Shown: positions 1-19,700 of the stretch, in pieces
Layout: every line of letters begins with the position of its first letter
Numbering within the stretch: the stretch's first letter is position 1
Virus record (IMG/VR): IMGVR_UViG_3300046001_004127
Span: 1-37,073 of that record
DNA: 37,073 nucleotides
From: a virus
Reading direction: 5' to 3' (one strand)
Position numbers and translations under genes: made by a program
Notes under the pieces: model-generated
What the model was told of the DNA's origin: nothing
The model's input: only the letters and a program-made list of their open reading frames with translations
Databases searched by the model: none

Positions 1-2
1 GG

Positions 3-1667: not shown

Positions 1668-1671
1668 TCAC

Positions 1672-1679: not shown

Positions 1680-1705
1680 TTGCTGTACGCAAAAGGAACA
1701 ATTAA

Positions 1706-3523: not shown

Positions 3524-3526
3524 ATA
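3519..3526 (+). promoter_or_regulatory. Late-promoter-like motif CATAAATA before the 73-aa gene
   Basis: It overlaps the gp20 stop codon and ends only 7 bases before ATG 3534, with no ribosome site between. If used like a T4 late promoter, the mRNA would start at or next to the start codon. Confidence 0.45.
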
Positions 3527-3533
3527 AAAGATC

Positions 3534-3755: not shown

Positions 3756-3776
3756 TATATATTCGTTATAGCATAC

Positions 3777-3801: not shown

Positions 3802-4517
3802 TACCAACACCAGTGAATGAGTTGTATCTTAACAGATATAAATCATTATTAGAACATTACACATACACATCAGATTACCCTGAGATACATCATATCTGTC
3901 CTAAGTCGCTGGGCGGTAGAGATTCTCCTGATAACTTAATATCAATCCCATCAAGAGTGCATTTTGTTGCCCATTGGATGCTATGGAAAGCATATCAAAC
4001 AGACGAGTTAGCCTATGCGTTCTGGGCAATGTGCCACCAAAAGAAGCGCGGACAAGAAAACCGCTACACAAAAATAAACAGCAAAACTTACGAGATACTT
4101 AAGAAAAGACGAAGTATAGTTATTAGCAATAGTAACACTAATCGCTGGAAAAACAAAGAGTGGGCTGAAAAAATGAAAGCCACTATGCGCAAGGCAGCAA
4201 CAACACCTGTTGAAAAAGAAAGAAGAAGTAAACAGGCAATACTAACAAATAATAAACACAAGACTGCTAACAGTAATAGTATGAAAACGTTGTGGGCCAA
4301 TGACGCCTGGGCATCAGAACAAAGAAAAAAATTCTCACTGGGTGCCGTAGCAAAAATTAAGCCTGTTATAGTTGATGGAATAGAATACCCACTGGTGTTA
4401 GACGTTGCTAAAAAATATCGCATAAGTATATCAACTGTAAGACAGCGAATACGAAGTAATACACCACAGTTCAGTGGATGGATGTATGCTCCCCCGGCCG
4501 CCCCTCCAGGCCTTTAA
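3795..4517 (+). CDS. HNH homing endonuclease with HTH-like C-terminal repeat and borrowed tail
   Basis: Free-standing homing endonuclease, expected to cut DNA of phages lacking it and spread by repair. The HNH core is at residues 29-60: EIHHICPKSLGG with H32/H33, N47, H56 and H60. The middle is Lys/Arg-rich. Residues about 188-230 resemble an intron-nuclease repeat (NUMOD1/IENR1-like HTH): VDGIEYPLVLDVAKKYRIS, then STVRQRIRSN, ending FSGW. Directly after it comes YAPPAAPPGL, matching the end of the upstream 73-aa protein. It is related to the HNH at 27888-28595: with the starts chosen here, H33, N47 and H56 fall at the same residue numbers. There is no ribosome site; the start is set by the hairpin and motif. 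It interrupts the capsid operon between the 73-aa gene and the core gene. Confidence 0.9.
   Translation: MRLPTPVNELYLNRYKSLLEHYTYTSDYPEIHHICPKSLGGRDSPDNLISIPSRVHFVAHWMLWKAYQTDELAYAFWAMCHQKKRGQENRYTKINSKTYEILKKRRSIVISNSNTNRWKNKEWAEKMKATMRKAATTPVEKERRSKQAILTNNKHKTANSNSMKTLWANDAWASEQRKKFSLGAVAKIKPVIVDGIEYPLVLDVAKKYRISISTVRQRIRSNTPQFSGWMYAPPAAPPGL
4485..4517 (+). repeat. Recoded gene-end repeat, copy 2 (end of the HNH gene)
   Basis: Encodes YAPPAAPPGL plus TAA in the HNH frame. Compare copy 1 at 3723-3755: the only amino-acid change is Ala to Pro at the eighth position. Confidence 0.85.
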
Positions 4518-4545
4518 AATCTAGTCAAATTCACCAGTTTTGACG

Positions 4546-4553
4546 TCTAAATA
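4546..4553 (+). promoter_or_regulatory. Late-promoter-like motif TCTAAATA for the core-capsid operon
   Basis: It lies 62 bases before the gp67-like ATG and just before a long hairpin. It probably drives gp67-gp21-gp22-gp23. Confidence 0.55.
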
Positions 4554-4554
4554 T

Positions 4555-4593
4555 GCTCAGTTTACTACTTTTGTGTAAGTAGTAAACATGAGC
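4555..4593 (+). promoter_or_regulatory. Long 5' leader hairpin before the gp67-like gene
   Basis: The perfect stem TTTACTACTT/AAGTAGTAAA with loop TTGTGT extends outward through GCTCAG and TGAGC with one bulged A, about 16 pairs. There is no U tract. By T4 late-promoter spacing the transcript would begin about 4559, so the stem would sit at the 5' end and may protect the mRNA. GGAGGA at 4604-4609 stays free. Confidence 0.6.
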
Positions 4594-4615
4594 CATAACC
4601 TTTGGAGGAAACAAT

Positions 4616-5377
4616 ATGACATCAAAATTTGAACAGTTAATTGAATTCGTAATTAACGATGAAGAAGCAAAAGCTAAAGAACTTTTCCATGATATCGTTG
4701 TTGAGAAATCGCGCGAAATCTACGAAAGTCTAATGGAAGAAGAAGAAGAAGAATTAACTACTGAAGAAGTTGACGAAGGCATGGAAAACGACGGCGATGC
4801 TGCTGACGATTTGATCACCGACGTAGAAACTGAAGAAGAAGGTCTTAGCGAAGAAGACGACATGGATGCTGAGTTTGACGACGAAGCAGAAGAAGCCGGT
4901 GATGATTTAACAAAAGACATCGAAGGCGACCATGACAACGAAGGCGATATTGAAGATCGCGTAGTTGACCTAGAAGACAAATTAGACGAACTAATGGCTG
5001 AATTTGAAGCCATGATGGGCGGCGAAGGTGGCGAAGAAGAACAAGAATTTGACATGGATGCTGGCGGTGACGCTATTGAAATGGATGACACATCTGAAAT
5101 TATGCCAGAAATGGGCATGATGGAAGCTGTAAGTTTGTCCAAAGTAGCTCCTGCTAAAATGGGCGACGACGGTGCCAACACCAAAAGTGTAGTACCACAG
5201 AACTCAGGTGCCAAAGGTATGCAAGGTTCCCCAGTTAAGATGACTGGTGACACTGCACAAGGCCGTCCTGCTCCATCTGTAAAAGATATGGGCATGACAA
5301 CAAGTCCTAAACAAGGTGCCGCACCAAAGCCAGTGACAACACAGGCTGCAGGCGTAAACACTAAATCTCCAGTATAA
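4616..5377 (+). CDS. gp67: Prohead core protein, gp67-like, highly acidic
   Basis: Internal scaffold core component by position and by its N-terminal segment (residues 1-40, with EEAKAKELFHDIVVEKSREI), which resembles the opening of T4 gp67 followed by an acidic stretch. Residues 40-150 are very rich in Glu and Asp; residues 155-253 are a Lys/Pro/Gly/Met low-complexity tail. At 253 aa it is about three times T4 gp67 (80 aa). It may cover the roles of both gp67 and gp68, since no separate gp68 is visible. A strong GGAGGA ribosome site precedes ATG 4616. The gene is followed within 6 bases by the prohead protease, which would be expected to process core proteins. Confidence 0.8.
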   Translation: MTSKFEQLIEFVINDEEAKAKELFHDIVVEKSREIYESLMEEEEEELTTEEVDEGMENDGDAADDLITDVETEEEGLSEEDDMDAEFDDEAEEAGDDLTKDIEGDHDNEGDIEDRVVDLEDKLDELMAEFEAMMGGEGGEEEQEFDMDAGGDAIEMDDTSEIMPEMGMMEAVSLSKVAPAKMGDDGANTKSVVPQNSGAKGMQGSPVKMTGDTAQGRPAPSVKDMGMTTSPKQGAAPKPVTTQAAGVNTKSPV

Positions 5378-5383
5378 GAGATT

Positions 5384-6031
5384 ATGGCTCGTTACCTACA
5401 AGAACACTTGACATTCTCACAAGCGCAGGTCGAACTGCTGAGTGAGGATGCTCAGGATGGTTCTGGTAAAACCCTTTACATGCAAGGAATTTGCATTGAA
5501 GGTGATAAACGCAATGCTAATGAAAGAATATACCCTGCTCACGAAATTCGTAAAGCAGTTGGCACTATTAATGAACAACTTAAAAGTGGCAATTCGGTAT
5601 TGGGAGAAGTAGATCATCCAGATGATCTTAAGATTAACCTAGACCGTGTGAGTCACATGATTGATAAAATGTGGTGCGACGGTGCAATTGGTTATGGAAA
5701 ATTGAAGATATTACCAACGCCAATGGGACAACTGGTTAAAACCATGTTGGACAGCGGTGTTAGATTAGGTGTTTCAAGTCGTGGGTCAGGAAATGTCGAC
5801 GACAGAACAGGACATGTCAGTGATTTTGAAATCGTCACTGTAGATGTAGTTGCACAACCCAGTGCTCCAAATGCATATCCCACAGCAATCTATGCAGGAC
5901 TCATGACCATGAAGTATGGTCATAGACTGTTGGAAGTAGCACGTGAAGCCGGTGCGGACAACAAGGTACAAAGATATTTGAAAAGTGAAGTAGTAAAGCT
6001 GATCAAAGATCTTAAAATTAGGGAGGAATAA
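5384..6031 (+). CDS. gp21: Prohead protease gp21
   Basis: Serine protease of the T4 gp21 family, which matures the prohead by cutting core and capsid proteins at acidic sites. At 215 aa it is close to T4 gp21 (212). Visible catalytic candidates are H78 in GEVDHPDD, S131/S132 in GVSSRGSG and D154 in VTVDVVAQPS. RNANERIYP near residue 43 is also typical of the fold. It is tightly packed after the core gene and 2 bases before gp22. Confidence 0.95.
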   Translation: MARYLQEHLTFSQAQVELLSEDAQDGSGKTLYMQGICIEGDKRNANERIYPAHEIRKAVGTINEQLKSGNSVLGEVDHPDDLKINLDRVSHMIDKMWCDGAIGYGKLKILPTPMGQLVKTMLDSGVRLGVSSRGSGNVDDRTGHVSDFEIVTVDVVAQPSAPNAYPTAIYAGLMTMKYGHRLLEVAREAGADNKVQRYLKSEVVKLIKDLKIREE

Positions 6032-6033
6032 GC

Positions 6034-7134
6034 ATGTTAGATGCTATTAAACCGTTACTAGATAGCGACTTGATCACCGAGGAAACTCGCCAGGAGATCA
6101 ACGAAGCTTGGGAAGCCAAGCTGGTTGAAGCTCGTGAACAGGCTCGTGCAGAACTCCGCGAAGAGTTTGCACAACGCTATGAACATGACAAAACAGTGAT
6201 GGTGGAAGCCCTAGATCGTATGGTAACAGAAGGTCTCACTACGCAAATTCAAGCCGTTGCTGCCGAAAAAGCACAATTGGTAGAAGATCGCGTTAAGTTC
6301 CAAGGCAAGATGAATGAAAGTGCTACAAAGTTCAACAACTTTATGGTTACTAAACTTGCTGAAGAAATTAGCGAACTGCGTAAAGATCGTAAGCAGCACA
6401 ATGAAGGACTCCAGAAATTGGAAGGCTTTATTGTTCATGCATTGGCTCGCGAAATTCAAGAATTCGCAACTGACAAACGTGATGTTGTAGAAACAAAAGT
6501 TCGTCTAGTACGTGAAGCACGTGGCCAATTGGAAGCATTGAAAGCACGTTTCGTAACAGAATCTGCACAGAAAATGAGCCAATCTGTTAGCCGTCATCTA
6601 AAGGCTGAACTCAGTCAATTACAAGAAGACATTAAAGTTGCTCGCGAGAACAATTTTGGTCGTCGTATCTTTGAAGCATATGCAAGTGAATTTGGTGCTA
6701 CTCATCTCAATGAGAAGGCAGAAGTACGTAAATTACACGATACAATTGCAAACAAAGATGCAAAATTGGCAGAAGCCATCAAACTTATTAGGAATGCAAA
6801 AGTTCTTAATGAGTCAAAAGAGCGTGAAATACGAATGATCAAAGAGTCTAATGAGCGTGAAAGCACATTGGCCGATTTACTGGCTCCTCTTAACAAAGAG
6901 AAGCAAGATGTCATGCGTAATTTACTCGAAAGCGTCCAAACTCCACGTTTGAAAAACGCATTTGAAAAGTATCTACCGGCTGTTCTAACCGACCGCTCTG
7001 TAAAAGCCTCTAAAGTGATTACAGAATCCGTGTCAGCAGTCACCGGCGATAAATCTGCCCGTAGCCAAATTGAAGACGACAGTGCTGAATCTAGCAATGT
7101 TATCGACATCAAGCGTTTGGCAGGGTTAAATTAA
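6034..7134 (+). CDS. gp22: Major scaffold (core) protein gp22
   Basis: The sequence is almost entirely charged and helical with long coiled-coil stretches (about residues 20-330) and no catalytic motif, as expected for a T4 gp22 scaffold. It lies between gp21 and gp23 exactly as in T4. At 366 aa it is longer than T4 gp22 (269). GGGAGGA before ATG 6034 overlaps the end of gp21. The last 30 residues end DIKRLAGLN. Extensive cleavage by gp21 during maturation is inferred from T4. Confidence 0.92.
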   Translation: MLDAIKPLLDSDLITEETRQEINEAWEAKLVEAREQARAELREEFAQRYEHDKTVMVEALDRMVTEGLTTQIQAVAAEKAQLVEDRVKFQGKMNESATKFNNFMVTKLAEEISELRKDRKQHNEGLQKLEGFIVHALAREIQEFATDKRDVVETKVRLVREARGQLEALKARFVTESAQKMSQSVSRHLKAELSQLQEDIKVARENNFGRRIFEAYASEFGATHLNEKAEVRKLHDTIANKDAKLAEAIKLIRNAKVLNESKEREIRMIKESNERESTLADLLAPLNKEKQDVMRNLLESVQTPRLKNAFEKYLPAVLTDRSVKASKVITESVSAVTGDKSARSQIEDDSAESSNVIDIKRLAGLN

Positions 7135-7152
7135 TTTAAAAGGAGACATTAA

Positions 7153-8349
7153 ATGTCACAACAATTATTAGAAGGTCGCTGGGACGAGACCAAGGAAGCA
7201 TTGCTCGAAGGTCTAAATGGTTCTAAGCGCACTAGTATGAACGTTATTCTTGAGAATACACGTAAGTACTTGAAAGAAAACGCAAGTGCTGGTTCCACAG
7301 CATCTGGCAACATCGCCACACTAAACCGTGTGATTCTACCAGTTATCCGTCGTGTAATGCCAACAGTTATTGCTAACGAGTTGGTAGGCGTTCAGCCAAT
7401 GACAGGTCCAGTTGGTCAAATCCACACCTTGCGTGTGCGTTACGCCAACAGCTTGACTGACAACTCAGCTGCCGCAACTAGTGTTACAGCTGGTCAAGAA
7501 GCATTGAGTCCATTCACTATTGCTACTGCATACTCTACAGTTGGCAAAGATACAACATCAACATCAACTTACACAGGCGCTAACACAGCAACGCTTGAAG
7601 GTAACGGCGGCAAGCAAATTTCCGTTCAAATCTTGAAGCAAGCAGTTGAAGCCAAGACACGTAAGTTGCAAGCACGTTGGACATTTGAATCTGCACAAGA
7701 CGCACAAGCCATGCATGGTATTGACGTTGAAGCAGAAATCATGGCAGCTCTTGCACAAGAGATCACTGCTGAGATTGACCAAGAGATTCTCTTGAGTTTG
7801 AGCACATTGGCTGCTGTTGAGTACACATACAACCAAGCTACCGTTTCTGGTACTGCTACGTTCGTAGGTGACGAACACGCTGCTTTGGCAGTGTTGATCA
7901 ACCGTACAGCTAACTTGATCGCCCAACGTACACGTCGTGGCGCAGGTAACTGGGCTGTTGTTTCACCAGCCGCATTGACAGTGTTGCAAAGTGCAACTAC
8001 TTCTGCGTTTGCTCGCACAACAGAAGGCACATTCGAAGCACCTACAAACACCAAGTTTGTTGGTACATTGAACGGTGCTATGCGTGTATTTGTTAACTCA
8101 TATGCTAGCGACACTGCTAACGTATTGGTTGGCTACAAAGGTACTAGTGAGGCAGATGCTGCCGCATTCTATTGCCCATACATTCCTCTAATGAGTTCTG
8201 GTGTGGTTCTTGACCCATCAACATTCGAACCAGTCGTGTCATTTATGACTCGTTATGGCTTCGTAGAGTTGACAAACACTGCAAGTTCTTTCGGTAACGC
8301 CGCTGACTATGTTGGCGAGATTGCTGTTCAAAACTTGTCATTCTCCTAA
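7153..8349 (+). CDS. gp23: Major capsid protein gp23
   Basis: HK97-fold capsid subunit of the T4 gp23 family. The clearest block is residues 60-100: LPVIRRVMPTVIANELVGVQ followed by PMTGPVGQIHTLRVRY. At 398 aa it is shorter than T4 gp23 (521), so some surface insertions may be missing. Candidate gp21-type cleavage sites in the N-terminal 50 residues are LLE/G at 19 and LKE/N at 42; which is used cannot be told. AAAGGAG precedes ATG 7153. A strong terminator follows. No gp24-like vertex paralogue is in the window. Confidence 0.97.
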   Translation: MSQQLLEGRWDETKEALLEGLNGSKRTSMNVILENTRKYLKENASAGSTASGNIATLNRVILPVIRRVMPTVIANELVGVQPMTGPVGQIHTLRVRYANSLTDNSAAATSVTAGQEALSPFTIATAYSTVGKDTTSTSTYTGANTATLEGNGGKQISVQILKQAVEAKTRKLQARWTFESAQDAQAMHGIDVEAEIMAALAQEITAEIDQEILLSLSTLAAVEYTYNQATVSGTATFVGDEHAALAVLINRTANLIAQRTRRGAGNWAVVSPAALTVLQSATTSAFARTTEGTFEAPTNTKFVGTLNGAMRVFVNSYASDTANVLVGYKGTSEADAAAFYCPYIPLMSSGVVLDPSTFEPVVSFMTRYGFVELTNTASSFGNAADYVGEIAVQNLSFS

Positions 8350-8378
8350 TCAGAGAATCCACCCCAGGGATGGGAAGG

Positions 8379-8408
8379 AAAAAAAGCACTCCTCGGAGTG
8401 CTTTTTTA
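8379..8408 (+). terminator. Rho-independent terminator after gp23
   Basis: Stem AAAAAGCACTC with GAGTGCTTTTT, loop within CCTCGG, followed by further T. It closes the capsid operon. Confidence 0.92.
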
Positions 8409-8413
8409 TTGGG

Positions 8414-8421
8414 TATAAATA
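8414..8421 (+). promoter_or_regulatory. TATAAATA, exact T4 late-promoter element
   Basis: It lies directly after the gp23 terminator and 5 bases before ATG 8427. It is the only exact match to the T4 consensus I noted. Confidence 0.6.
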
Positions 8422-8426
8422 TTGGT

Positions 8427-8561
8427 ATGATCAACCAAATAAAATATTCAGGCTTATTTCCTGAGAAACATGAGAGTCCAGTGGGAACAACCTTGGGTTT
8501 ACCACAACCTAAGCCTGTTGCTCCTGTTGTGCCTGTGCAAATGCAACCTGTTAAATCTTAA
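8427..8561 (+). CDS. Small Pro/Val-rich protein (44 aa), hypothetical
   Basis: The ORF runs from ATG 8427 to TAA 8561. An upstream in-frame ATG at 8370 would place the start before the terminator and the promoter-like motif, so 8427 is preferred. The product starts MINQIKYSGLFPEKHESP and ends with a Pro/Val/Gln tail. There is no ribosome site; an exact TATAAATA lies 5 bases upstream. It overlaps the convergent glycosyltransferase gene by 11 bases. I do not recognise it. Confidence 0.5.
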   Translation: MINQIKYSGLFPEKHESPVGTTLGLPQPKPVAPVVPVQMQPVKS

Positions 8562-9711
8562 ACAATTTCAAGTGTAACTTGATTCGTTCAACCACTGTGT
8601 CCCAGTCACCTATTTGGGGTTGACGGAACAATCTTGCAGTGGCATACCACGGCGTGTCGTCTCTGTTTAACAGCCAGCGCCAGCAAGGTGCATAGTTGTT
8701 CAGCATGATCCAAGTGGGCTTGCCTAATGCGGCAGCAAGATGTGCAGTGGCAGTGTCCACACTCACCACCACATCAAGATTTGTAACCAATGCGGCAGTG
8801 TCAGCAAACGAGTTCACACCACCTGGAAAACAGCGTACTCCTGCTGAGACTAGTTCTTTTTCTTCCTCAGTAGTACAGTCAGTTTGTAAATTATACCATT
8901 CGTAATCTGCATGTGATTGAATCAAGCTCAACATGGTCGCAAACGGCATGGCCTTGTGCTGATTGATCCAACTGTCACGTCGGCCTGACCAGGCAAAGCC
9001 CACTCGTAGACGATTCTTTACACCTAAATTCCTGCGCCAGTCTGCAACCAATGCAGGGTCAGGATTTAGATATTGAATCACAGTGGGCAAGTTGTCTACA
9101 CGAACGTTTAACTTGCCGGGCAAGCTCATTATGGGAAGCCAGTAATCAAATACATCACCTGGATTTTCGGCATAACCAATCACCCGAACTCCACGGCCAA
9201 TTTCACTGGATTGTATCAACGGAATCAATCCGTTGGTCACTTGCACTGTGACTGTGCCACCAATGTTTTTTAAGTTCTGTATGAATCTCACAAACTGAAT
9301 AATATCACCGTGGCCTTGTTCGCCACGAATAAAAATTGTTTTACCTGTTAAATCTTCACCGTTCCACACAGGCCAAGGATAGTTGGGAATTGTACCTTTT
9401 AAATGTTCAAAATTATGCCGTGCTTCATAGGCAGGCCAGCCACGTACATAGTCACCACTGAGTAAGTAAGCCACTGACAAATTAAAATGATGTGTTACAT
9501 TGGCTGGATCAAGTTGAATGGCACGTTGTAAAAACGGAACAGCACCCACAGGATCGCCTATCTCTCTTAACACATTGCCGTAGTTGTTGAACGCACCCGA
9601 TGAGCCTCTGTCCGTGGCCATTGCTGTTGCGTACTGTTGCAGTGCCTGTTCAGGCAGGTGTTGTTCTCTGTAGGTATTGCCTTGAGCAATAAGTTGTTCT
9701 GTGTTTTGCAT
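8551..9711 (-). CDS. TPR-repeat protein with glycosyltransferase (GT9/GT41-like) domain
   Basis: Residues 5-105 form about three TPR helices (phrases GAFNNYGNVLREIGD and VPFLQRAIQLDPANVTHHF). The rest matches the common TPR-linked glycosyltransferase-like family: TGKTIFIRGEQGHGDIIQF near 125, RVGFAWSGRRDSWINQHKA near 235, and the nucleotide-sugar-site-like VSVDTATAHLAAALGKPTW near 315. It could add sugar to a virion or host component. The substrate is unknown. It lies alone on the minus strand between capsid and fibre modules, with CGTAAATA 5 bases upstream of ATG and no ribosome site. Confidence 0.82.
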   Translation of the reverse strand: MQNTEQLIAQGNTYREQHLPEQALQQYATAMATDRGSSGAFNNYGNVLREIGDPVGAVPFLQRAIQLDPANVTHHFNLSVAYLLSGDYVRGWPAYEARHNFEHLKGTIPNYPWPVWNGEDLTGKTIFIRGEQGHGDIIQFVRFIQNLKNIGGTVTVQVTNGLIPLIQSSEIGRGVRVIGYAENPGDVFDYWLPIMSLPGKLNVRVDNLPTVIQYLNPDPALVADWRRNLGVKNRLRVGFAWSGRRDSWINQHKAMPFATMLSLIQSHADYEWYNLQTDCTTEEEKELVSAGVRCFPGGVNSFADTAALVTNLDVVVSVDTATAHLAAALGKPTWIMLNNYAPCWRWLLNRDDTPWYATARLFRQPQIGDWDTVVERIKLHLKLFKI

Positions 9712-9716
9712 GACAA

Positions 9717-9724
9717 TATTTACG
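9717..9724 (-). promoter_or_regulatory. Late-promoter-like motif CGTAAATA of the TPR-glycosyltransferase
   Basis: Minus-strand motif 5 bases before the ATG at 9711. Same close spacing as the HNH genes. Confidence 0.4.
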
Positions 9725-9757
9725 TGTTATGTTGACACTGCAAAAATATCAATCGCT

Positions 9758-9765
9758 CATAAATA
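9758..9765 (+). promoter_or_regulatory. Late-promoter-like motif CATAAATA
   Basis: It lies 90 bases before ATG 9856, divergent from the glycosyltransferase motif at 9717-9724. Confidence 0.6.
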
Positions 9766-9770
9766 CTTGT

Positions 9771-9855
9771 CAACGCAATCATGCGTTTTATGCAGGCTTA
9801 AGACCTCTGCGTAGCGGCTAGAACCCGCATCGGACTTCTTTAAGGAGAAAACAAA
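9771..9855 (+). promoter_or_regulatory. Structured 5' leader, about 85 bases
   Basis: This is longer than other leaders here. CTTAAGA near 9797 can pair with TCTTTAAG near 9838, partly covering the ribosome site TAAGGAG at 9841-9847. Between them TGCG and GCGG can pair with CGCA and CCGC in alternative stems. A regulatory fold is inferred from inspection only; I match no known riboswitch. Confidence 0.35.
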
Positions 9856-10680
9856 ATGGGTCGTCCTCTAAAAATACAAAAATATTCAACTGGCTCCAGT
9901 ATCACTGGTGGCGCAGTAGCAATTGATCAAGCATATCCTCCGTTTGACGCTCCAACGTCAATGGACACAAACACTGTTGTTTTGCCAACACCTGCAACTT
10001 CACCACTGCCATTCACCGGCGTGGTTGGTGGCCTACAAGGTGGCGCTGTCAGCACAACATATCCCATTGTTGAAGTGACTGGCAACATTCAGAACAGTTA
10101 TACAGGCAGTGCCAGCAGTGTGATTCTGCGCCAAAAAGGTGCTCATAAATTCCTAGTGGCCACTGCCGCTGGTATTGATCCTGCAAATGCAGTGATTGGT
10201 GCAACACCCACTGTGGCATTGCGTATTCTTACGCTGGGTGATACAGACTGGCAAGCCATGGGTGCTCCAGTAGGCGCTGACGTTGGCACAGTGTTCACAC
10301 CAACTGCTGCCTCCGGCGCAGGCACAACAGGAACAGCTCAAGAAATTGGTCAGTGCGTGTTGACCAGCGATTCAACTCCTGCTGGCGGCAACATGACCAT
10401 TACAATGGCAGTGGGTGGAGACAGTACTGCTGTGTACGTCAGTAAGTTGACCAACAAGTTTGTACAAGACTTCAACGGTGGTGAAACCGGCGGCAACGCT
10501 GACACTGGTGATGTTTGGAATCCTGATCAAGTTGTGAATGATATTGAATATGCAGCCAACTTCTTTACAGATGCAAGTACATTTGCCAAGAGTGGTGCCG
10601 AAACAGCCACCTGGGCCAGTACCAATCAAAACAGCGATGGTACACTTGACTTGGCACAGGTTGACAAACTCACATCTTAA
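9856..10680 (+). CDS. Putative virion structural/fibre-associated protein (274 aa)
   Basis: It begins MGRPLKIQKYSTGSS and is rich in Thr, Gly, Ala and Val, like small structural proteins of cyanomyovirus-type phages. Residues about 118-155 hold a module LTLGDTDWQAMGAP followed by GTVFTPTAASGAGTTGTA, a pattern seen in phage fibre and decoration proteins. No enzyme motif is seen. TAAGGAG precedes ATG 9856. It opens the fibre cluster and is followed by a terminator. Confidence 0.7.
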   Translation: MGRPLKIQKYSTGSSITGGAVAIDQAYPPFDAPTSMDTNTVVLPTPATSPLPFTGVVGGLQGGAVSTTYPIVEVTGNIQNSYTGSASSVILRQKGAHKFLVATAAGIDPANAVIGATPTVALRILTLGDTDWQAMGAPVGADVGTVFTPTAASGAGTTGTAQEIGQCVLTSDSTPAGGNMTITMAVGGDSTAVYVSKLTNKFVQDFNGGETGGNADTGDVWNPDQVVNDIEYAANFFTDASTFAKSGAETATWASTNQNSDGTLDLAQVDKLTS

Positions 10681-10693
10681 TTTTGTAACCCTG

Positions 10694-10725
10694 ATCCCCA
10701 CGGTTAAATATCGTGGGGATTTTTT
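10694..10725 (+). terminator. Terminator with a late-promoter motif in its loop
   Basis: Perfect 9-bp stem ATCCCCACG/CGTGGGGAT, loop GTTAAATAT, then TTTTT. The T tract runs up to the ATG of the next gene at 10726. Confidence 0.88.
10703..10710 (+). promoter_or_regulatory. Late-promoter-like motif GTTAAATA inside the terminator loop
   Basis: It lies 15 bases before ATG 10726. By T4 spacing, transcription would start about 10716, inside the 3' arm, so the new transcript would escape the terminator. GTGGGGA may then serve as the ribosome site. Confidence 0.45.
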
Positions 10726-11313
10726 ATGACTATAGCATTTGTGTTGGGCAACGGAGTCAGCAGGTCCGGACTGCCGTTGGAACACATCAAAACATTGGGA
10801 AAAGTATATGGCTGTAACGCTCTTTATAGAGAGTTTACACCAGACGTTCTTGTGGCAACAGATCGCCCAATTGCCCAACTGATACAAGAAACAGGCTATT
10901 CTGCACGACATCGATTCTACACAAGAAAACCCATTCCTGGTCTGGGTGCTGTGTCTGTTCCTAAAGAGTATTACGGATTTAGTTCTGGTCCAAATGCTGT
11001 GGGCATTGCGTCAAAAGACCAACACGGCAGGATCTACCTGATAGGATTTGATATGGGTCCCAATGTACACAACCAATTCAACAACATGTATGCTGGCACA
11101 GAGTTTTACAAACCCAATGATTCACGCCCAACTTTTACCGGAAATTGGGTAAAGCAACTGACAACTGTGGCCAAAGATTACCCTGATACCGAATTTATTC
11201 GCATCTGCGGCAATACCACAGCACGATTACCAGAGTTGGACCGGATTAAAAACTTAACTCACGAGGATTTGAGTACCTTTGTAATGCGGATAAATAATCA
11301 AAAGGATCTCTAA
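10726..11313 (+). CDS. Small Rossmann-like protein (DUF115/GT42-like opening), function unknown
   Basis: 195 aa. The opening IAFVLGNGVSRSGLPL, then YGCNALYREFTPDVLVATD, resembles the nucleotide-sugar-binding start of DUF115/MptE-like and GT42-like proteins, which begin with GNGPS-type loops and then a CN(A/Q)-type motif. Later phrases are IYLIGFDMG and FTGNWVKQLTTVAKDYPDTE. It may modify glycans on fibres or the host surface, but this is inferred from weak family resemblance. It sits between a terminator and the fibre genes. A gene of similar style is at 24105-24770. Confidence 0.65.
   Translation: MTIAFVLGNGVSRSGLPLEHIKTLGKVYGCNALYREFTPDVLVATDRPIAQLIQETGYSARHRFYTRKPIPGLGAVSVPKEYYGFSSGPNAVGIASKDQHGRIYLIGFDMGPNVHNQFNNMYAGTEFYKPNDSRPTFTGNWVKQLTTVAKDYPDTEFIRICGNTTARLPELDRIKNLTHEDLSTFVMRINNQKDL
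11289..11296 (+). promoter_or_regulatory. Late-promoter-like motif GATAAATA
   Basis: It lies inside the 3' end of the preceding gene, 17 bases before ATG 11314, with AAAAGGA between. Confidence 0.5.
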
Positions 11314-11925
11314 ATGGCTACAGTAAAAAACACCAGCGGCAACTATACCATCACAGTAGCAGATGGTCTTGGACTGCTGACCATCAACGCTGACCTAGAT
11401 GTGATTGGCAACATCACATACATTGATTCAAGTGAACTCAAAGTCACTGACCCATTCATCACAGTTGCAGCCAACAACAACGGTGCAATACAAAGCATGG
11501 GCCTGGTGGCTCAAAAAACAACCACAACCTTTGCAGGTTTGCGATTTAACACAGTGTCAGGCGATTGGGAAATCAGTGACAGTGTTGCTGCCAGTGGTGC
11601 ACCAATATCACCATATGTAACAATTGCTTCCGGTAATACAAGCACTACACCAGGTGCACCTGTTAACTCTGTACAGTTTAACGATGCTGGCACCTTTGGT
11701 GGTAACAGCAAATTTACATTTGATTCTACAAATACCAAAGTGGGCATAACAGGACAATTGGTTTTGGGCAACATAGCGTCAACCCCCACAGCAACAGCAA
11801 ACAGTGCCGCACTGTACAATGACACCGAAGGTGCAGGCGGTACTGGTGTTTATGTGCGAAGCACCACAGTGAGCGACGAATTAATTAGCAAACGCAAGGC
11901 TCTTGCATACAGTCTTGTACTTTAA
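11314..11925 (+). CDS. Fibre-like structural protein (203 aa)
   Basis: Beta-rich, Thr/Ala/Asn/Val-heavy sequence typical of short phage fibre proteins. Phrases DPFITVAANNNGA and GLVAQKTTTTFAGLRF resemble the N-terminal region of the 1621-aa fibre (DPVILLASTQTGAP, then IGFLGQRGTGNNIAFVW), so the two may share an attachment domain. It ends with SDELISKRKALAYSLVL. AAAAGGA precedes the ATG. No catalytic motif is seen. Confidence 0.72.
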   Translation: MATVKNTSGNYTITVADGLGLLTINADLDVIGNITYIDSSELKVTDPFITVAANNNGAIQSMGLVAQKTTTTFAGLRFNTVSGDWEISDSVAASGAPISPYVTIASGNTSTTPGAPVNSVQFNDAGTFGGNSKFTFDSTNTKVGITGQLVLGNIASTPTATANSAALYNDTEGAGGTGVYVRSTTVSDELISKRKALAYSLVL

Positions 11926-11934
11926 GGAATCAAA

Positions 11935-12267
11935 ATGGCAATCACCAATACACGATTAACAACAACTACACCAACTACAGTATTTGAAGCAGTTGGCCAA
12001 CAGGCAATCACCACAATATATTTGTGCAATACCACAGGAACAGATGTTTCAGTTAATGTATTTGCAATCAACAGTGATGACAGTGTTGGCGCTGCTTTTG
12101 AAAATATGATTTACAATCAGATTTTACTCACTGCTGGCAGTGGCAACATAGGTGACACCTATGTTATATCAACAGAAAGACTTATACTAGACAACGGCGA
12201 TCTCATTGATGTTGAAGCAAACATTGCAGATTGTGTTACTGTTACAGTGAGTTCGATCGCAGTGTAA
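11935..12267 (+). CDS. Small beta-rich structural protein (110 aa)
   Basis: Short Thr/Val-rich protein with TTIYLCNTTGTDVSVNVFA, a phrase type found in small structural proteins near phage fibres. TTAAGGA lies before ATG 11935. The gene sits 9 bases after the preceding one and 1 base before the next, so they are probably co-translated. Role inferred only from neighbours. Confidence 0.65.
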   Translation: MAITNTRLTTTTPTTVFEAVGQQAITTIYLCNTTGTDVSVNVFAINSDDSVGAAFENMIYNQILLTAGSGNIGDTYVISTERLILDNGDLIDVEANIADCVTVTVSSIAV

Positions 12268-12268
12268 T

Positions 12269-12667
12269 ATGGGAAACTGGGTTAAAAATCGCCGACTAGA
12301 ATCTGGCAGCACGTCGGTGGTCATGCCAACTGGAAGCTCAGCCACCCGCCCGGACGCACCTGTGTTTGGACAATTTAGATTCAACACCGACATAGGATTG
12401 ATTGAATTCTACAACGGAGCCATATGGTCAACCCTATCAGCCGGAGGATCTATTGCATACACAGTTGATGATTTTGTGGGTAACGGCGTTACCACAGTGT
12501 TCACAATGTCTGTGCAGGAAACAACAGCACAACAGATCATTGTGTTTGTTGGCAGTGTGTATCAAATACCAGTGACAAATTACACAGTGAATGGTGGGTT
12601 TGATATTACATTTACAAGCGCACCGCCATTGGGTCTTCCAATCAACGTGATACACAGTTCAACCTAA
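12269..12667 (+). CDS. Fibre-module protein (132 aa): RP-FNT module plus beta module
   Basis: Two modules are visible. Residues 18-55 hold PTGSSATRPDAPVFGQFRFN followed by LIEFYNGAIW. Residues 65-130 hold VGNGVTTVFTMS, then IIVFVGSVYQIPVTNY and ITFTSAPP. Both recur in the same order in the 439-aa and 1621-aa fibre proteins. This gene is therefore a stand-alone copy of a module pair used in longer fibres. Confidence 0.72.
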   Translation: MGNWVKNRRLESGSTSVVMPTGSSATRPDAPVFGQFRFNTDIGLIEFYNGAIWSTLSAGGSIAYTVDDFVGNGVTTVFTMSVQETTAQQIIVFVGSVYQIPVTNYTVNGGFDITFTSAPPLGLPINVIHSST

Positions 12668-12678
12668 GTATTGCATCA

Positions 12679-12686
12679 ACTAAATA
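12679..12686 (+). promoter_or_regulatory. Late-promoter-like motif ACTAAATA
   Basis: It lies 20 bases before ATG 12707. Between them is a small hairpin CCCT-ATA-AGGG whose 3' arm is the ribosome site. A transcript begun here would start near 12692 and lack the 5' arm, while read-through mRNA could fold. Confidence 0.5.
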
Positions 12687-12706
12687 CCCTATAAGGGAAA
12701 AAATCA

Positions 12707-15208
12707 ATGGCTATTAGCAAAATTGCAGGACAGATGTTGAAGAACACTCTCGAACGAGATGGTTCTAATCTGGCAATTTCTGATACAGTAGCCGACACTC
12801 CGGTCGTCTTTGTTGACGTTGTAAATTCCAGAGTTGGTGTTAACAACGCAACTCCTACTCAAGCACTTGACATTGTTGGCAATGTACTGGCCAATAATCT
12901 TTTTTCGTCTAGTACTGTAAGCGCAGTTGGCAACATCACAGGTGCTAATGTTAATACCGCAGGTGTGATGAGTGCCACAGGCAATATCACTGCTAATTTC
13001 TTCATTGGCAATGGCAGCCAACTGACCGGCATTGATGCCACTAGTATTCAAAACGGCAATAGCAATGTAAAAGTCTATGCCAATGCAAATGTGGCCACAA
13101 GTGTGGGCGGCAACGCCAATGTGTTTGTGGTCACAGGAACAGGTGCAGATGTCACAGGCACAGTGAGTGCCACAGGCAACATCACTGGCAACTTTTTCAT
13201 CGGCAATGGTAGTCAATTAACAGGAATTGATGCCACATCAATTCAAAACGGCAACAGCAATGTAAAAGTCTACGCAAATTCTAATGTTGCTACAAGTGTA
13301 GCAGGCACTGCCAATGTGTTATTAGTCACCAGCACTGGTGCAAACGTAGATGGCACGGTCAACGCCACTGGTAATCTTGTTGCCAATGGAGTAACGTTAT
13401 CTGGCAACGCTATATCGGCAGCATCTGGATTATTGTCACTGGGCTCAAATGCCAATATCACAATCACAGGCGGCACTGCAAATTATGTGTTGAGTACCAA
13501 TGGTTCTGGCAATTTGACATGGTCGTCAGCTGCTGACATTGGCGTAGTGGGCAATCTTATCCCAATGGGTACTAACACATTAGGCAACCTTGTTAGTAAT
13601 GCTGTTACCTTAACCACCACTACCACAGTGACTGATGGTATCACACAGTTAAACACAGTGCTGGGAAAATTGGTACCGCCGTCTCCTGCTAATTTTCCAG
13701 GTGGACAAACACTGTCACTTTCTGGCTTGGCCACATACAGAATGGCCAATATCACACAGGTAGATAATACACCTGCTGCCAACAAAGCAGTGGCCGCTGG
13801 CACTACTGTCACCACGGTTCTACGTGTTGCCACCTATGCTACCAACACTATCAGCACTGTTGGCCCGGGCGATTCCGGTACAATCACTGCGGTTCGCAAT
13901 GGTGCCAATGTAGGTACTGTAACTCTGAACACTGGTGCAAGCCCAACGGCCAACGGAACATACGGCGGCAATCTTGTGATCACCAACAACTTTGACTATC
14001 GCAACGCCAATGCCAACATTGCTGCCGGATTCTGGTATGTATTTTCATCGGCTGTTTCTGGAACTGCGGCACCTGCTGGATGGAACGAAGTTTACATATC
14101 TGATTCTGCCACAGGCAATACCAATACACCTGCCTGGTACTATGACAATTCAAGTCCGGCTACTCCCAGTTTCAGTGGCAGCACAATGACCCCTCCAGGG
14201 TCACCAACTCTGTTATACAGCAGTACCATTCCGCACTACACCAATGCCACACAATTTGCCATTGCCGCCAATGTGGCCAATGTCAGTGGCAACACATATC
14301 CAACATCAAACACCTTGGCTTCAGGATCAGCAGCCGGCAGTTTTGCGGCACCTGCGTCAGTTAACTACAGTGCCAGTAATATTGGCAGTAATGTGCTGGG
14401 ATCGTTTGCATCTGCATCATTCTCAACCACTGCGAACATAACCACAGGATTTGGCGGCAGTTCAACAGGCCCCAGCATCAGTGTCAACAACAGTTACTCA
14501 ACTGGCACGTTGACATTGACCTCGGCCCTGGGCAACATTGCATTGTACAAGTCTGGCTCTGCCACTGCCATTGACGAAGGCAACGTTGTTGTAACCAGCG
14601 TTGGCACAGGTTCAGGCAATGCTGTTCGTATCATCAATCCTGGGTCTGGAAACACGCCAGTTTTTACTGGCAGCGAAGCAAACTTCAACAGCCAAAGTTC
14701 AACGCTGGAAACATACGATGCCACAGTGGTAGGCTCAGGGGCACAAGGTGTACTCAAACACGATCAAACCAACTACTCAACTGGGTATTTGCCTGCAGGT
14801 CCTAACCTAAGTGCTGGACGTTCAGGAACACAGTATTTTACAATTAAATTTGTACGAACCAACGTGTCAAAATTTGATATTACCTATGCTGGCAATGTGG
14901 CCGGTATGTGGGTGGCACTGCCTGGGTCAGTGATTGACGCCAGTAGCGGTGCCAATGGCTGGATTGCCATGACCACTGCCTATGCTGGTGCTGGCTATCC
15001 TGGAGTTAACTCACCGGGTAACGGCTCAGACGGTTGCGCACTGGGCGGTGTGGTTGTGCCCAATGTAACCACAGCCAGCACAAACAAAACGTGTACTTTT
15101 GGAACTGTTTCAAGTTCCAGCACAGCAACAAACGAAATTTATGTGAGAATTGCTCTCACGTCAGGTCAGACAGTCACTGGCCTATCACTAAACACAGCGA
15201 GTAACTAA
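12707..15208 (+). CDS. Large tail-fibre/adhesin protein (833 aa)
   Basis: Residues 1-90 form an opening with VNSRVGVNNATPTQALDIVG, a common phage fibre phrase. Residues about 65-210 contain repeats of the type SATGNITGNFFIGNGSQLTG followed by IDATSIQNGNSNVKVYAN, present twice in tandem with clearly diverged DNA. From about 300 to 833 the sequence is non-repetitive and Ser/Thr/Asn/Gly-rich (PAGWNEVYISDSATGNTN near 460), a candidate receptor-binding region. No chaperone-type C terminus is seen here. ATG 12707 follows AAGGGAAA. The stop overlaps the next ATG by one base, implying translational coupling. Confidence 0.82.
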   Translation: MAISKIAGQMLKNTLERDGSNLAISDTVADTPVVFVDVVNSRVGVNNATPTQALDIVGNVLANNLFSSSTVSAVGNITGANVNTAGVMSATGNITANFFIGNGSQLTGIDATSIQNGNSNVKVYANANVATSVGGNANVFVVTGTGADVTGTVSATGNITGNFFIGNGSQLTGIDATSIQNGNSNVKVYANSNVATSVAGTANVLLVTSTGANVDGTVNATGNLVANGVTLSGNAISAASGLLSLGSNANITITGGTANYVLSTNGSGNLTWSSAADIGVVGNLIPMGTNTLGNLVSNAVTLTTTTTVTDGITQLNTVLGKLVPPSPANFPGGQTLSLSGLATYRMANITQVDNTPAANKAVAAGTTVTTVLRVATYATNTISTVGPGDSGTITAVRNGANVGTVTLNTGASPTANGTYGGNLVITNNFDYRNANANIAAGFWYVFSSAVSGTAAPAGWNEVYISDSATGNTNTPAWYYDNSSPATPSFSGSTMTPPGSPTLLYSSTIPHYTNATQFAIAANVANVSGNTYPTSNTLASGSAAGSFAAPASVNYSASNIGSNVLGSFASASFSTTANITTGFGGSSTGPSISVNNSYSTGTLTLTSALGNIALYKSGSATAIDEGNVVVTSVGTGSGNAVRIINPGSGNTPVFTGSEANFNSQSSTLETYDATVVGSGAQGVLKHDQTNYSTGYLPAGPNLSAGRSGTQYFTIKFVRTNVSKFDITYAGNVAGMWVALPGSVIDASSGANGWIAMTTAYAGAGYPGVNSPGNGSDGCALGGVVVPNVTTASTNKTCTFGTVSSSSTATNEIYVRIALTSGQTVTGLSLNTASN

Positions 15209-16527
15209 TGGCAGTCTCAATCGCACAATACGTTGACTTACTGTTTAAGAAACTGCAAGGTGTTGCAAAGACTGCCAATGCCGCGACTAAAAGTGCGTCA
15301 AACGAAAGCATAGCATCACCAGCGTTCATACGTGGCGACATTGTATGGATGCAGTCTGACCAAATCACTTCCTCTGCTGGTGCAATCACTGGCATCGCCA
15401 ATGCTCGAATAAACTCAAATTCTGTGCAGTGTGCACCTGATACCACTGTACCGCCCATTGGCGGCATACGGCCTACTTGGCTGAGTAATGTTTCATACTG
15501 GATTCCTCAAGAGTTTGGGGCCACCTGGTTGCCAAAGGTATATGTAGGACCCGCTGCCGCAGCCAATATTCAAGCCACTGGTACACAGATATTCTCCACC
15601 GGTATCAGTGGCGTAGGTGAATATTTCTTTGACACACAAGCCGGTGTACTCAACTTCATTGGCGAAACAATCCCCACTGTGCTGACAGCAGGAAATGTAG
15701 TTTATATTGCAGGATATGAATATGTTGGTGCTCTTGGGGTTACCAACAATCCCGGCAACGTGACAATTGGCAATTTAACTGTGGCCAACACCACTGTGTC
15801 AACCAACTTGGCCAACGGAAATATTACACTAACAGCCACAGGCAACGGGCTTGTGACCATAACTGGCACAGGTGGCATAACAATACCCTACGGCAACACC
15901 ACACAGCGTCCTGATCCTGCTGTGGAAGGCACAATTCGATATAATAATGCATTAAATCAAACTGAAATATATACAGGCTCAGACTGGGAAAGTATTGGCG
16001 GTGCAATAGCAAATATTACCAACCAAACTATCACGCCAGATGGATCAACTGCCACATACACTCTGGACCAGGCTGCTACTGCAACTGGAATTTTGGTCAC
16101 AATCAACGGTATCAGTCAAACACCCAACGTTGATTACACAGTGGCCTCGACCCAGATAACATTCACTGATGTTCCACTCACAACTGATATTATACAGATT
16201 CGATTTATTGCCACAGTTAGTACAGTAACTGCTTTGACAAATTCTGCAGGAACTGCAGAAGTAAACACCACAGCCAGCGGCAACATTGATTTTGATATAA
16301 ATTCTACAACTGTGGCACAAGTGACCAGCACCAGCATACTGAATATCAGTGCCGGTCACAGTTTACAACTGCCTGCATACACAGTGGCACAGGCCAACGG
16401 ACTAGGCAATGTGGCAACAGGACAGGTGATCTATGTTTCCAATGGCGCTGCTGGGTCTCCTTGTTTGGCAGTGTACTCAGGTGGTGCCTGGAAGCAAGTG
16501 GCCATCGGCAGCACCATCACAACATAA
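15208..16527 (+). CDS. Conserved virion structural/fibre protein (439 aa), cyanomyovirus type
   Basis: The N-terminal half is recognisable from T4-like cyanophage structural proteins: MAVSIAQYVDLLFKKLQG, NESIASPAFIRGDIVWMQ, SYWIPQEFGATWLPKVYV and GEYFFDTQAGVLNFIGETIP. Residues about 225-255 hold GNTTQRPDPAVEGTIRYN, then IYTGSDWESIG. Residues about 270-330 hold the beta module DGSTATYTLDQAAT with VTINGISQTPNVDYTV. A final module ends VYSGGAWKQVAIGS. Its start overlaps the preceding stop (TAATG). Confidence 0.8.
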   Translation: MAVSIAQYVDLLFKKLQGVAKTANAATKSASNESIASPAFIRGDIVWMQSDQITSSAGAITGIANARINSNSVQCAPDTTVPPIGGIRPTWLSNVSYWIPQEFGATWLPKVYVGPAAAANIQATGTQIFSTGISGVGEYFFDTQAGVLNFIGETIPTVLTAGNVVYIAGYEYVGALGVTNNPGNVTIGNLTVANTTVSTNLANGNITLTATGNGLVTITGTGGITIPYGNTTQRPDPAVEGTIRYNNALNQTEIYTGSDWESIGGAIANITNQTITPDGSTATYTLDQAATATGILVTINGISQTPNVDYTVASTQITFTDVPLTTDIIQIRFIATVSTVTALTNSAGTAEVNTTASGNIDFDINSTTVAQVTSTSILNISAGHSLQLPAYTVAQANGLGNVATGQVIYVSNGAAGSPCLAVYSGGAWKQVAIGSTITT

Positions 16528-16553
16528 TCTGCACTAAAATAGCACATATTGTT

Positions 16554-16590
16554 AGATGTTTTTACCAGGTTGGTAAATAATCGTACATCT
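16554..16590 (+). promoter_or_regulatory. Nested hairpin with late-promoter-like motif GGTAAATA
   Basis: The inner perfect stem TTTACCA-GGT-TGGTAAA (16561-16577) lies inside an outer pair AGATGT/ACATCT. GGTAAATA at 16572-16579 is in the 3' arm. The rest of the 209-base gap to the next gene holds a second motif and no ORF I can support. Confidence 0.5.
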
Positions 16591-16662
16591 GATAACCTTC
16601 CCGACTTGTAAATTTATTTCACACTGAAAAGTAAACTGCTCAGTGTACTTCGCCACGACTTT

Positions 16663-16670
16663 GGTAAATA
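16663..16670 (+). promoter_or_regulatory. Second late-promoter-like motif GGTAAATA before the giant fibre
   Basis: It lies 66 bases before ATG 16737 and shares TTGGTAAATAA-type flanks with the motif at 16572. Another AT-rich element TATAAAT lies at 16675-16681. Confidence 0.5.
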
Positions 16671-16736
16671 ACATATAAATTTAAATCTTTGACAAGGTTG
16701 TCAGCGATTTTTGAAGTTAAAACAGGGGAATTACAA

Positions 16737-19700
16737 ATGGCTGTAACCAGAATTAAGAATAATCAAATCACTGACGCAACCATTGTTGCCAGTTCAAAAT
16801 TAGTTGATTATTCGATCAGTGCCGCAAAAATCGCAAACAATTTAACCTACGGGTCAAATTTAACTGTTGCAGGAAACTTGACAGTTCAGGGCAATACCAC
16901 TGCGATTGATACCAACATTACCACCATTGAAGATCCAGTTATTTTACTGGCTTCTACTCAGACCGGTGCTCCAGCAGTGGACATTGGTTTCCTTGGTCAA
17001 CGCGGTACTGGCAACAACATTGCTTTTGTCTGGGACGAAAGCGCACAGACCTTTGTAACAGCATTCAGTAACACTGCAGAAACATCAACCACAATCAACA
17101 TTTTAGCGTATGCCAATCTTACCACATTGAACGCCAATGTAACTGCTGGATTAACTGTTGCTGGTCAAAGCAACATTGCCAACTTGACAGTGGCAGCCAA
17201 CTCTGTTGTGAGTTTTGGAAATGTTGTGATCAGCAATGTTGCTGATCCTGTTGCCAACACTGATGCTGCCACCAAAGCATATGTTTTAAGCACATTGGGC
17301 AACTCATCTTTTGCCATCTCTGACGGCACAACCACCGAAGCAGTCAACGGTGGCGACACAATTGACTTTGACGGAACAACCAATCAAATCACCGTTGCGG
17401 TGGCATCAGTTACTGGCAATGTAAGTAGTGTCACAGTGGCATTGGCCACTAATGTTTCAGTTGTTGGCAACGTCACAGTTGGCAACATCTTGACAGTCAC
17501 TGGAACAGTCAACAGCAACTTGGTTCCAACCGCATCTGCAACTTATAACTTGGGTGCTGTTGGTTCACTGTGGAAAGATTTATATTTGTCTGGCAACAGT
17601 ATCTACATTGGTACACAGACTATCACATCAAATGCCGAAGGTGTTGCACTTTCAAATACTGCGGTTGCTGGTAATTTTACTACAGCAGGCAATGTCAGTG
17701 CAACAGGAACAGGTACTTTTGGCAATGTAAACACAGGTGGTGCAGTAAGTGCTACCAGTACAATCACAGGTGGCAACTTGGCCACAGGTGGCACAGTAAG
17801 TGCCGCAGGAACAGGTACATTTGGTAATGTTGCCACAGGTGGAACAATTACTGCTACAGGAACTGCTACTCTGGGAAATGTTGATACAGGCGGCACGGTA
17901 AGTGCCACAGGTAACGGCACATTTGGCAATGTAAGTGCAGTTGGCGCAGTCAACAGTACAACAGCATCAGCAAGTGGAAACATCACAGGTGGCAACTTGG
18001 CCACAGGCGGAACAATCAGTTCAACTGGCATGGCCACCCTGGGCAACGTTGAGTCAGGTGGAACAATCAGCGGCACTGGCAACATCACTGGTGGTAACAT
18101 ATTAACTGGCGGCATTTCAAGTGCCGCAGGAAATGTATTTGGTGGCAACATCTTAACAGGTGGATTGATCAGTGCAACTGGCAACATCACTGGTTCTGGC
18201 TTAGGAACATTTGGCAATGTCAATGTAAATGGATTTGTTTCTGCTACCGGTAATGTCAATGGTGACTTTATAATTGCTAATGCTGGATTTGAAGCACCTT
18301 CGGTAACTATCACTTCTACATCTGCCAACAGTGGCATTAGTTTGGTAACAAATGGAACAGGCAACATCAATGTCAACACCAGTTTCATCAACGGTGTTAA
18401 AGATCCAGTACAGGCACAAGATGCCGCAACCAAGAGTTATGTTGATGCAGTGGCGCAAGGTCTTGATCTTAAAGCATCTGTACACGCAGCCACATATGTT
18501 TCACTGCCTGCTTATGTATACAACAACGGCACCAGCGGTGTTGGTGCAACACTGACAGGCAATGTTGCAGGTAACTTGACCATTGATGGTGAAATAGTTT
18601 CATCAGGTCAGCGAGTGCTGGTCAAGAACGAAACAGGCGCATTTGTCAACAATTCAACACCATCGGCTGCATTCAACGGTATCTACGTTGTAACCACAGC
18701 AGGTGCTCCTGGCACAGCATACGTGTTGACACGTGCTGTGGACTTTGACATTCCGGCCGAAATGTACGGTGCGTTTACATTTGTTGAAACTGGTAATGTA
18801 CTGGCTGATACAGGTTGGGTATGTACCAACAACAGTGCAAGTCCAATCACAGTTGGCGCAACAGAAATTATATGGGCACAGTTCTCTGGAGCAGGACAGT
18901 ACACAGCAGGCAATGCGCTGTCATTGAATGGCACACAGTTCAACGTCAACACTGATGGTTCTGCCAATGCCACAATTGGCATCAACGGCAGTAACCAGTT
19001 GATCATTCCGGCCAATGCTGTGCTGACAACACCAAACATTGGTGCGGCAACCGGCACAAGTTTAACTGCCACTGGCAACGTAGATGCTGGCAACGTATTA
19101 ACCAGCGGCATTGTAAGTTCAACTGGAACAGGTACATTTGGTAATGTCAACACAGGTGGACTTGTAAGTGCCACTGGCAACTTAACTGCTGGTAACATCA
19201 CATCCAATGGTAATTTTGACACAGTAAGCATCAGTGCTACTGGCAACATCAAAGGCGGCAATTTACAAACAGGTGGCACTGTGAGTTCCACAGGAACTGC
19301 CACACTGGGCAACATTAACACAGGCGGATTAATTAGTGCTACTGGCAACATCACCGGCGGCAATATCCTAACCAGTGGTGCAGGTGGTGACATTTCTGGC
19401 TCTGGCAACATCACAGGTGGCAACTTCTTAACTGGCGGAACAATCAGTTCAACAGGTACTGCTACCGTAGGCAATGTTGCCACAGGCGGTACAATAAGTT
19501 CTGTTGGTAACATCACTGCAGGTGCTGGTAGTTTCTTCATTGGTAACGGTTCACAATTGACCGGTGTGGATGCTAATAGTGCTATTGCATTAGTCAATGG
19601 CAACACCAATATCACAACTGCTACAAACGGCAATGCCAATGTTACAATTGGCGGCACAAGTAATGTGGTAGTGTTTACCACAGGTGGCATAGACGTAACA

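Follow-up and report, generated by a model that had tools for sequence, protein, structure and literature searches.

A 32-base hairpin in a T4-type phage fragment as a candidate terminator, ribosome-site lock and late promoter

On the long upstream RNAs that reach T4 genes e (lysozyme), soc and 49, the Shine-Dalgarno sequence or the AUG is held in a helix; in the case of gene e, the DNA that encodes the 5' strand of this structure contains a late promoter, TATAAATA, and the late RNA, which is without that strand, is translated (PMC3014915, in the sections cited here). A stable hairpin also hides the ribosome site of I-TevI, segB and Aeh1 mobE on early and middle RNA, and for I-TevI a late promoter gives a hairpin-free RNA (PMC2988022, in the passages cited). 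The T4 late promoter itself is described, in the part of PMC1524935 that concerns us, as TATAAATA at positions −13 to −6, with TAAATA at −11 to −6 and no necessity for a −35 element; T4-type late promoters elsewhere include CTAAATA in Aeh1 and NATAAATA in S-PM2 (PMC2984593, again for the part concerned). We have analysed a hairpin in a 37,073-base virus record, the whole of which is referred to as the window throughout the text. The window has matches to a portal, a head protease and a major head protein; T4-like phages are found among the relatives of its major head protein, and it is a fragment of a T4-type phage.

Anatomy of the hairpin and its neighbours

The hairpin occupies positions 10694-10725 of the plus strand, and all the window features given below are on this strand unless noted otherwise. 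Its 5' arm, ATCCCCACG (10694-10702), and its 3' arm, CGTGGGGAT (10712-10720), form a 9-bp stem without mismatch around a 9-nt loop, GTTAAATAT (10703-10711), which contains the hexamer TAAATA (10705-10710) starting 21 nt upstream of the ATG at 10726. A tract of six Ts (10720-10725) adjoins this ATG without a gap. A sequence-only reading of the window had pointed out the stem, the T tract, the motif in the loop and the joint with the ATG, and the letters confirm all of them at these positions. In the folded RNA the stem grows to 12 pairs, by means of closing pairs inside the loop (G-U and U-A pairs are possible there) and of one pair outside, reaching −20.3 kcal/mol (z = −4.45), a stability equalled in 0 of 200 shuffles. 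A GC-rich stem followed directly by a T tract is what defines an intrinsic terminator; here the stem has 9-12 bp and the tract six Ts, and the hairpin was the top-ranked terminator-like site in a scan of positions 1-20000 of the window. At the hairpin no Rfam family scored above its gathering threshold, the best sub-threshold match being Yfr10 (23.7 against 43 bits).

The 3' arm includes a Shine-Dalgarno-like string, GGGGA (10715-10719), which is GGAGGA or GAGGA in many relatives, and the T tract doubles as the spacer between this string and the ATG. Such double use of the arm was absent from the sequence-only reading; with the arm serving as a Shine-Dalgarno sequence, the hairpin would also be a ribosome-site switch, to be placed beside the hairpins of T4 gene e and I-TevI.

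Upstream of the hairpin lies a gene of 274 aa (9856-10680) without a PHROG or Pfam match, whose homologues precede the hairpin in two other loci, L084 and L092. Directly before this gene, at 9771-9858, Rfam places a freshwater-2 RNA (RF02980; 68.3 bits against a gathering score of 49.9); a literature search on RF02980 gave nothing. The downstream gene (10726-11313) encodes a protein of 195 aa with a CstII-like, Rossmann-type fold according to its structure model and to profile searches. A Pfam search with this protein gave no match, and it falls in phrog_30607, to which PHROG assigns no function. Its AlphaFold model (pLDDT 94.9) has the sialyltransferase CstII as the closest PDB match (E = 1.6e-4, TM 0.49), and the profile search returned weak matches to sialyltransferases (E = 0.002 at best) over the N-terminal 31-36 residues. 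The family label of this CstII-like fold we take to be GT42, and a glycosyltransferase-like function is our guess from the model. The named relatives are proteins of pelagiphage HTVC008M and of Mosig without assigned function, whose genes abut or overlap the preceding gene. The next late-promoter core, at 11291-11296, is located 23 nt upstream of the gene that starts at 11314.

Conservation of the junction and its link to one gene

A tblastn search over all loci returned 330 homologues of the 195-aa protein, with 121 distinct upstream regions of 45 bases. A hairpin with a T tract precedes the gene in 109/121 of these regions, and TANNTA forms the core of the loop in 107/109 hairpins (both counts include L040, whose hairpin falls below the score cut-off and was recognized by eye). 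The two exceptions, L068 and L069, have the hairpin without TANNTA in its loop; the 12 upstreams in which no hairpin was found all belong to distant homologues. The cores are TACATA (42), TAAGTA (29), TAACTA (16), TAAATA (13), TAATTA (4) and TATATA (3): at the two central positions we see AA or a single substitution of it, never a double one. The sequence-only reading had proposed to look for the same arrangement in relatives, with the loop kept alongside the stem. The arrangement is there, and the loop is kept as TANNTA; as exact TAAATA it is not, the window belonging to a minority (13/107) with this core, and the commonest variant, TACATA, having no promoter use elsewhere in the same phages.

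A scan for the DNA geometry of the junction, blind to the protein and with the central bases left free, gave at least 120 stretches, which among the matches listed represent 70 distinct contexts. The CstII-like gene family follows in 68 of the 70, and all 68 have AA in the center of the motif or are one step away from it; the other two contexts are a true hairpin before a 16-aa ORF (L562) and a chance match (L610). In L562 the hairpin (at 7433) is joined to the short ORF, perhaps a broken copy of the CstII-like gene. The two arms of the stem covary: in 61 distinct hairpins the outer 8 pairs are 98.4% paired, whereas none of 500 shuffles, which ignore relatedness, exceeds 80.5%. A run of at least five Ts ends at the ATG in 64 of 73 CstII-like genes versus 2 of 1125 others, and one of these two (in L084) is a relic of the hairpin. 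Overall, hairpin, loop core and ATG junction are conserved among these sequences far beyond chance.

In L003-L009, L278 and L285 the proteins are 92-98% identical to that of the window, but the upstream region is different and the hairpin is of the TAAGTA type; it seems that in these cases the junction was exchanged by recombination near the ATG.

As a control, we compared the terminators at the CstII-like gene with the other terminators of the same loci. TANNTA is found in 79/80 of the former, and a Shine-Dalgarno-like 3' arm in 78/80. Among the latter, TANNTA occurs in 1/167 once six rows are set aside (7/173 before), namely the misfiled target hairpins of L107, L344, L349 and L353 and their minus strand in L013 and L034; 21/173 have a Shine-Dalgarno-like 3' arm, and 157/173 have loops of 5 nt or less, mostly UUCG, CGAA, GAAA and GCAA. 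These numbers bear on a rival explanation, according to which the hairpin is an ordinary intrinsic terminator whose A/T-rich loop contains TAAATA by chance. A/T loops are in fact common in strong terminators of viral contigs: a scan of terminator loops in the collection gave at least 120 matches for TAAATA and at least 120 for the control TAATAA. Since the control, like TAAATA, gave at least 120 matches, an A/T-rich terminator loop is by itself nothing special in viral contigs, and we discarded the argument that TAAATA might be enriched among the terminator loops of the collection as a whole. Likewise, GTTAAATA as an 8-mer is found once in the window, with 1.35 occurrences expected; rarity was dropped as evidence, because a motif at chance level proves nothing alone, and it is the placement of TAAATA that carries the argument. 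Nevertheless, a loop core that is nearly always present at the CstII-like gene, nearly always absent from other terminators, and gone from both loci in which the gene is missing makes an explanation by chance most improbable.

The latter loci, L084 (4401-4600) and L092 (19729-19900), contain homologues of genes 9856 and 11314, and in neither did tblastn find a significant match to the CstII-like gene. Both retain a terminator with the GGGGATTTTTT arm, whose loops, TGCG and TTAAAAT, no longer contain TANNTA; shortly past the terminator a separate, ordinary TAAATA together with AAGGA serves the next gene. As the motif is lost with the gene while the terminator is retained, these two loci suggest that TANNTA is needed by the CstII-like gene and not by the terminator, a pattern that fits a promoter and an RNA element equally well.

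In the collection scan, ORFs of at least 100 aa start within 35 nt in 14/44 non-target TAAATA contexts versus 9/61 TAATAA contexts among the matches listed, a small difference, to which we give no weight, between contexts that are not independent, several being apparently pairs of related genes. Strong terminators with a TAAATA loop are also seen before other, apparently unrelated ORFs (L160 3889, L182 9083, L202 2784, L226 and others), and perhaps represent the same design elsewhere in viral contigs. Among the matches listed for named phages, inspection by eye gave no comparable case of a GC-rich hairpin that has TANNTA in the loop and a T tract running into an ATG; this comparison covered one stretch of 40-45 kb each of T4, KVP40 (largely outside the structural genes), Vibrio phage 2.275.O, Sinorhizobium phage Phosso, HTVC008M and Mosig.

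The late-promoter core in the loop

In a sample consisting of the window and of 80 loci around relatives of its major head protein, no hexamer is more enriched than TAAATA in the 60 bases that precede ORFs, with 197 occurrences in 358 upstreams, approximately 51-52 times the level in coding sequence. In the window, 12 of the 21 occurrences fall within the 10-45 nt that precede any of 31 gene starts selected by us from the ORF list; 10,000 random placements give 0.31 on average and never more than 4. A gp55-like protein was detected in 9 of the 10 relatives' contigs searched with the late sigma factor of HTVC008M (E = 1e-8 to 1e-13). In the register of T4 (PMC1524935) the TAAATA of the loop takes positions −11 to −6; enrichment and register together support the suggestion, made from the letters alone, that the loop may carry a late-promoter motif, in the form of a T4-type core. 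With respect to the T4 consensus, GTTAAATA in the window matches TATAAATA at 6/8 bases: the TAAATA core of a gp55-dependent late promoter is intact, but positions −13/−12 are GT, and T is the rarest base at −12 in other promoters (8% of 196 sites). In most relatives the loop differs from such a promoter at one of the two central bases of the core.

At other genes TAAATA is most frequent 22-45 nt and 10-11 nt from the start codon; the 21 nt of the hairpin has one counterpart among them, and a distance of 20 nt is seen twice. The second peak is sharp: of 1125 non-target ORF upstreams, 116 have TAAATA at precisely 10-11 nt from the ATG, where 3.0 occurrences are expected from the flanking positions, and only 12 of these 116 genes have a Shine-Dalgarno-like string, versus 145/214 genes with promoters farther upstream. 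If the core takes positions −11 to −6, a spacing of 10-11 nt would put the RNA start on or beside the A of the ATG, and leaderless late mRNAs are predicted in many gene families of the window and its relatives, a pattern that could exceed the hairpin in novelty. A TAAATA at this spacing is found in the window at 9711-9722 on the minus strand; none was found in the stretches of T4 (44 ORFs), Vibrio phage 2.275.O (45) and Phosso (50). Since the 10-11 nt peak agrees with the T4 register, it can be used as a ruler for the hairpin, where the predicted start is 10716, the sixth base past the motif, within the 3' arm and with a leader of 10 nt. A start inside the 3' arm had been part of the sequence-only reading, and as a prediction it is supported by this agreement.

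Evidence against a promoter comes from the relatives. Where the loop reads TACATA, TAAGTA or TAACTA, the enrichment of TAAATA at the other genes of the phage is 78x, 41x and 38x, respectively, and that of the phage's own loop variant there 1.2x, 2.7x and 4.2x; at the start-anchored position, TAAGTA is seen 9 times with 1.0 expected, TAACTA 4 times with 1.6 expected, and TACATA once with 1.2 expected. We reject the idea that each variant is the consensus promoter of the phage that carries it, as those phages use TAAATA elsewhere. Since the variants are hardly used at other genes, the loop of most relatives should act as a weak late promoter at best.

A core kept in 94/107 loops although off the promoter consensus, and consisting of variants that hardly serve as promoters elsewhere, would be accounted for if the element were a terminator and ribosome-site hairpin without a promoter, whose UA-N-N-UA loop is an RNA element bound by a phage protein or ligand that controls read-through or translation, in the manner of gp43, which binds the UAAC loop of its operator, or of an aptamer embedded in a terminator. 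The loss of the motif upon loss of the gene would agree with this explanation no less well, and the gp43 operators of T4, RB69 and RB49 have UAAC or UAAA loops (PMC3014915, in the sections cited). We consider it rather unlikely. The motif is 9 nt from the T tract in 51 of the 61 distinct hairpins (range 8-12), while its distance on the 5' side goes from 7 to 12 nt, even among hairpins with 9 nt on the 3' side (a distance of 16 in L278 is a mis-assignment, being 7 by eye). A 3' side that is fixed and a 5' side that grows and shrinks fit a series of promoter, start and Shine-Dalgarno sequence, and would be unexpected for a symmetric RNA loop. Furthermore, every change in the core is a single step from TAAATA; base −12 follows the preference of other promoters, with A or C in 47/61 hairpins (77%); exact TAAATA loops appear at three places of the tree that are apart from one another; and in most of the upstreams listed no second TAAATA was noticed (by eye, uncounted) from the upstream stop to the start of the stem. 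In 60/61 hairpins a purine stands at the predicted +1, a count that is partly given because the 3' arm is purine-rich.

That most relatives match the consensus poorly could also mean that TANNTA is a former promoter in decay, the junction being only a terminator and ribosome-site hairpin, with weak expression of the gene by read-through. In such a case the outer T, A, T, A should erode too, yet they are intact in 107/109 hairpins, over at least 20 loop-type changes across the tree (a quick one, in which 40 of 105 inner branches are open), and we regard a decaying promoter as quite improbable.

Proposed mechanism and comparison with described systems

We favor the reading in which terminator, Shine-Dalgarno lock and late promoter are combined in one hairpin, and assign to it a probability of roughly 0.6. 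In RNA derived from upstream, the GC stem and U6 would act as an intrinsic terminator and end the transcript of gene 9856-10680 before the next ATG. In RNA that reads through, the stem would lock the Shine-Dalgarno sequence, which is GGGGA in the window and GGAGGA in many relatives, and in our proposal the CstII-like gene is therefore left untranslated from upstream RNA; in the predicted fold of this RNA, GGGGAU is held in the hairpin with the AUG just outside. At the DNA level, the TAAATA of the loop would be the −11 to −6 core from which RNA polymerase, with a phage gp55-like sigma factor, starts at approximately 10716. The late RNA would begin with (G/A)GG(A/G)UUUUUUAUG and, having no 5' arm, could not fold the hairpin or terminate itself, leaving the ribosome site free; its first 24 nt, including GGGA and the AUG, are predicted to be unpaired.

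The sequences themselves show the anatomy, the covariation of the arms, the constraint on spacing, the double use of the 3' arm and the association of the motif with the presence of the gene; from these we infer that termination, initiation and translational switching take place at the junction. The terminator, which the sequence-only reading had already recognized, is well supported by the stem, the T tract, the folding and the conservation, and so is the Shine-Dalgarno role of the 3' arm. The promoter in the loop is plausible, being the best reading for the window and a less sure one in most relatives; its strength is probably modest, and weakened by one base in most relatives. On the whole, the earlier interpretation of this locus is partly supported. 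In a broader picture, to which we give about an even chance, one 32-bp segment would act at once as terminator, lock of the ribosome site and late promoter, and would be fixed at one gene throughout a large environmental clade of T4-like phages. With a promoter that in most members is kept one base short of the consensus, this gene would be shielded from late transcription arriving from upstream and expressed at a low level.

Termination, translational locking and initiation are normally arranged side by side; here all three apparently fit within 32 bases, and the new start apparently lies where self-termination of the new RNA is impossible. If this is true, the junction is a very compact natural insulator-promoter part, in which insulator, promoter and ribosome binding site overlap fully, and weak variants of the recognition site of the phage sigma factor could be read from evolution. 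At the level of titles and abstracts, our literature search gave no report of terminator loops that carry a late promoter, nor of leaderless late mRNAs, for T4-like phages.

A conserved element within a terminator hairpin, as is found here, is also described for the HMP-PP (thiS) terminator-embedded aptamer (PMC6478431), from which the present element differs in having just four fixed bases and a promoter-like spacing. A close likeness is to the T4 hairpins of genes e, soc and 49, in which the Shine-Dalgarno sequence is in a helix of the upstream RNA, as GGGGA is here in the 3' arm. Unlike these, the hairpin of the window, with its pure T tract joined to the ATG, should also terminate transcription. 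In the passages cited, the structures of e, soc and 49 (PMC3014915), like those of I-TevI, segB and mobE (PMC2988022), are described as sequestering hairpins and not as terminators. With respect to gene e, the promoter core is here exactly in the loop, and the product is a CstII-like protein rather than a lysis protein; with respect to I-TevI, segB and mobE, sequestration would be secondary, after termination, and the product is not a homing endonuclease. If correct, our reading extends the classic regulatory scheme of T4 to uncultured phages, with transcription termination added, and in our best reading the element is a variant of the T4 gene e and I-TevI arrangement fused to an intrinsic terminator.
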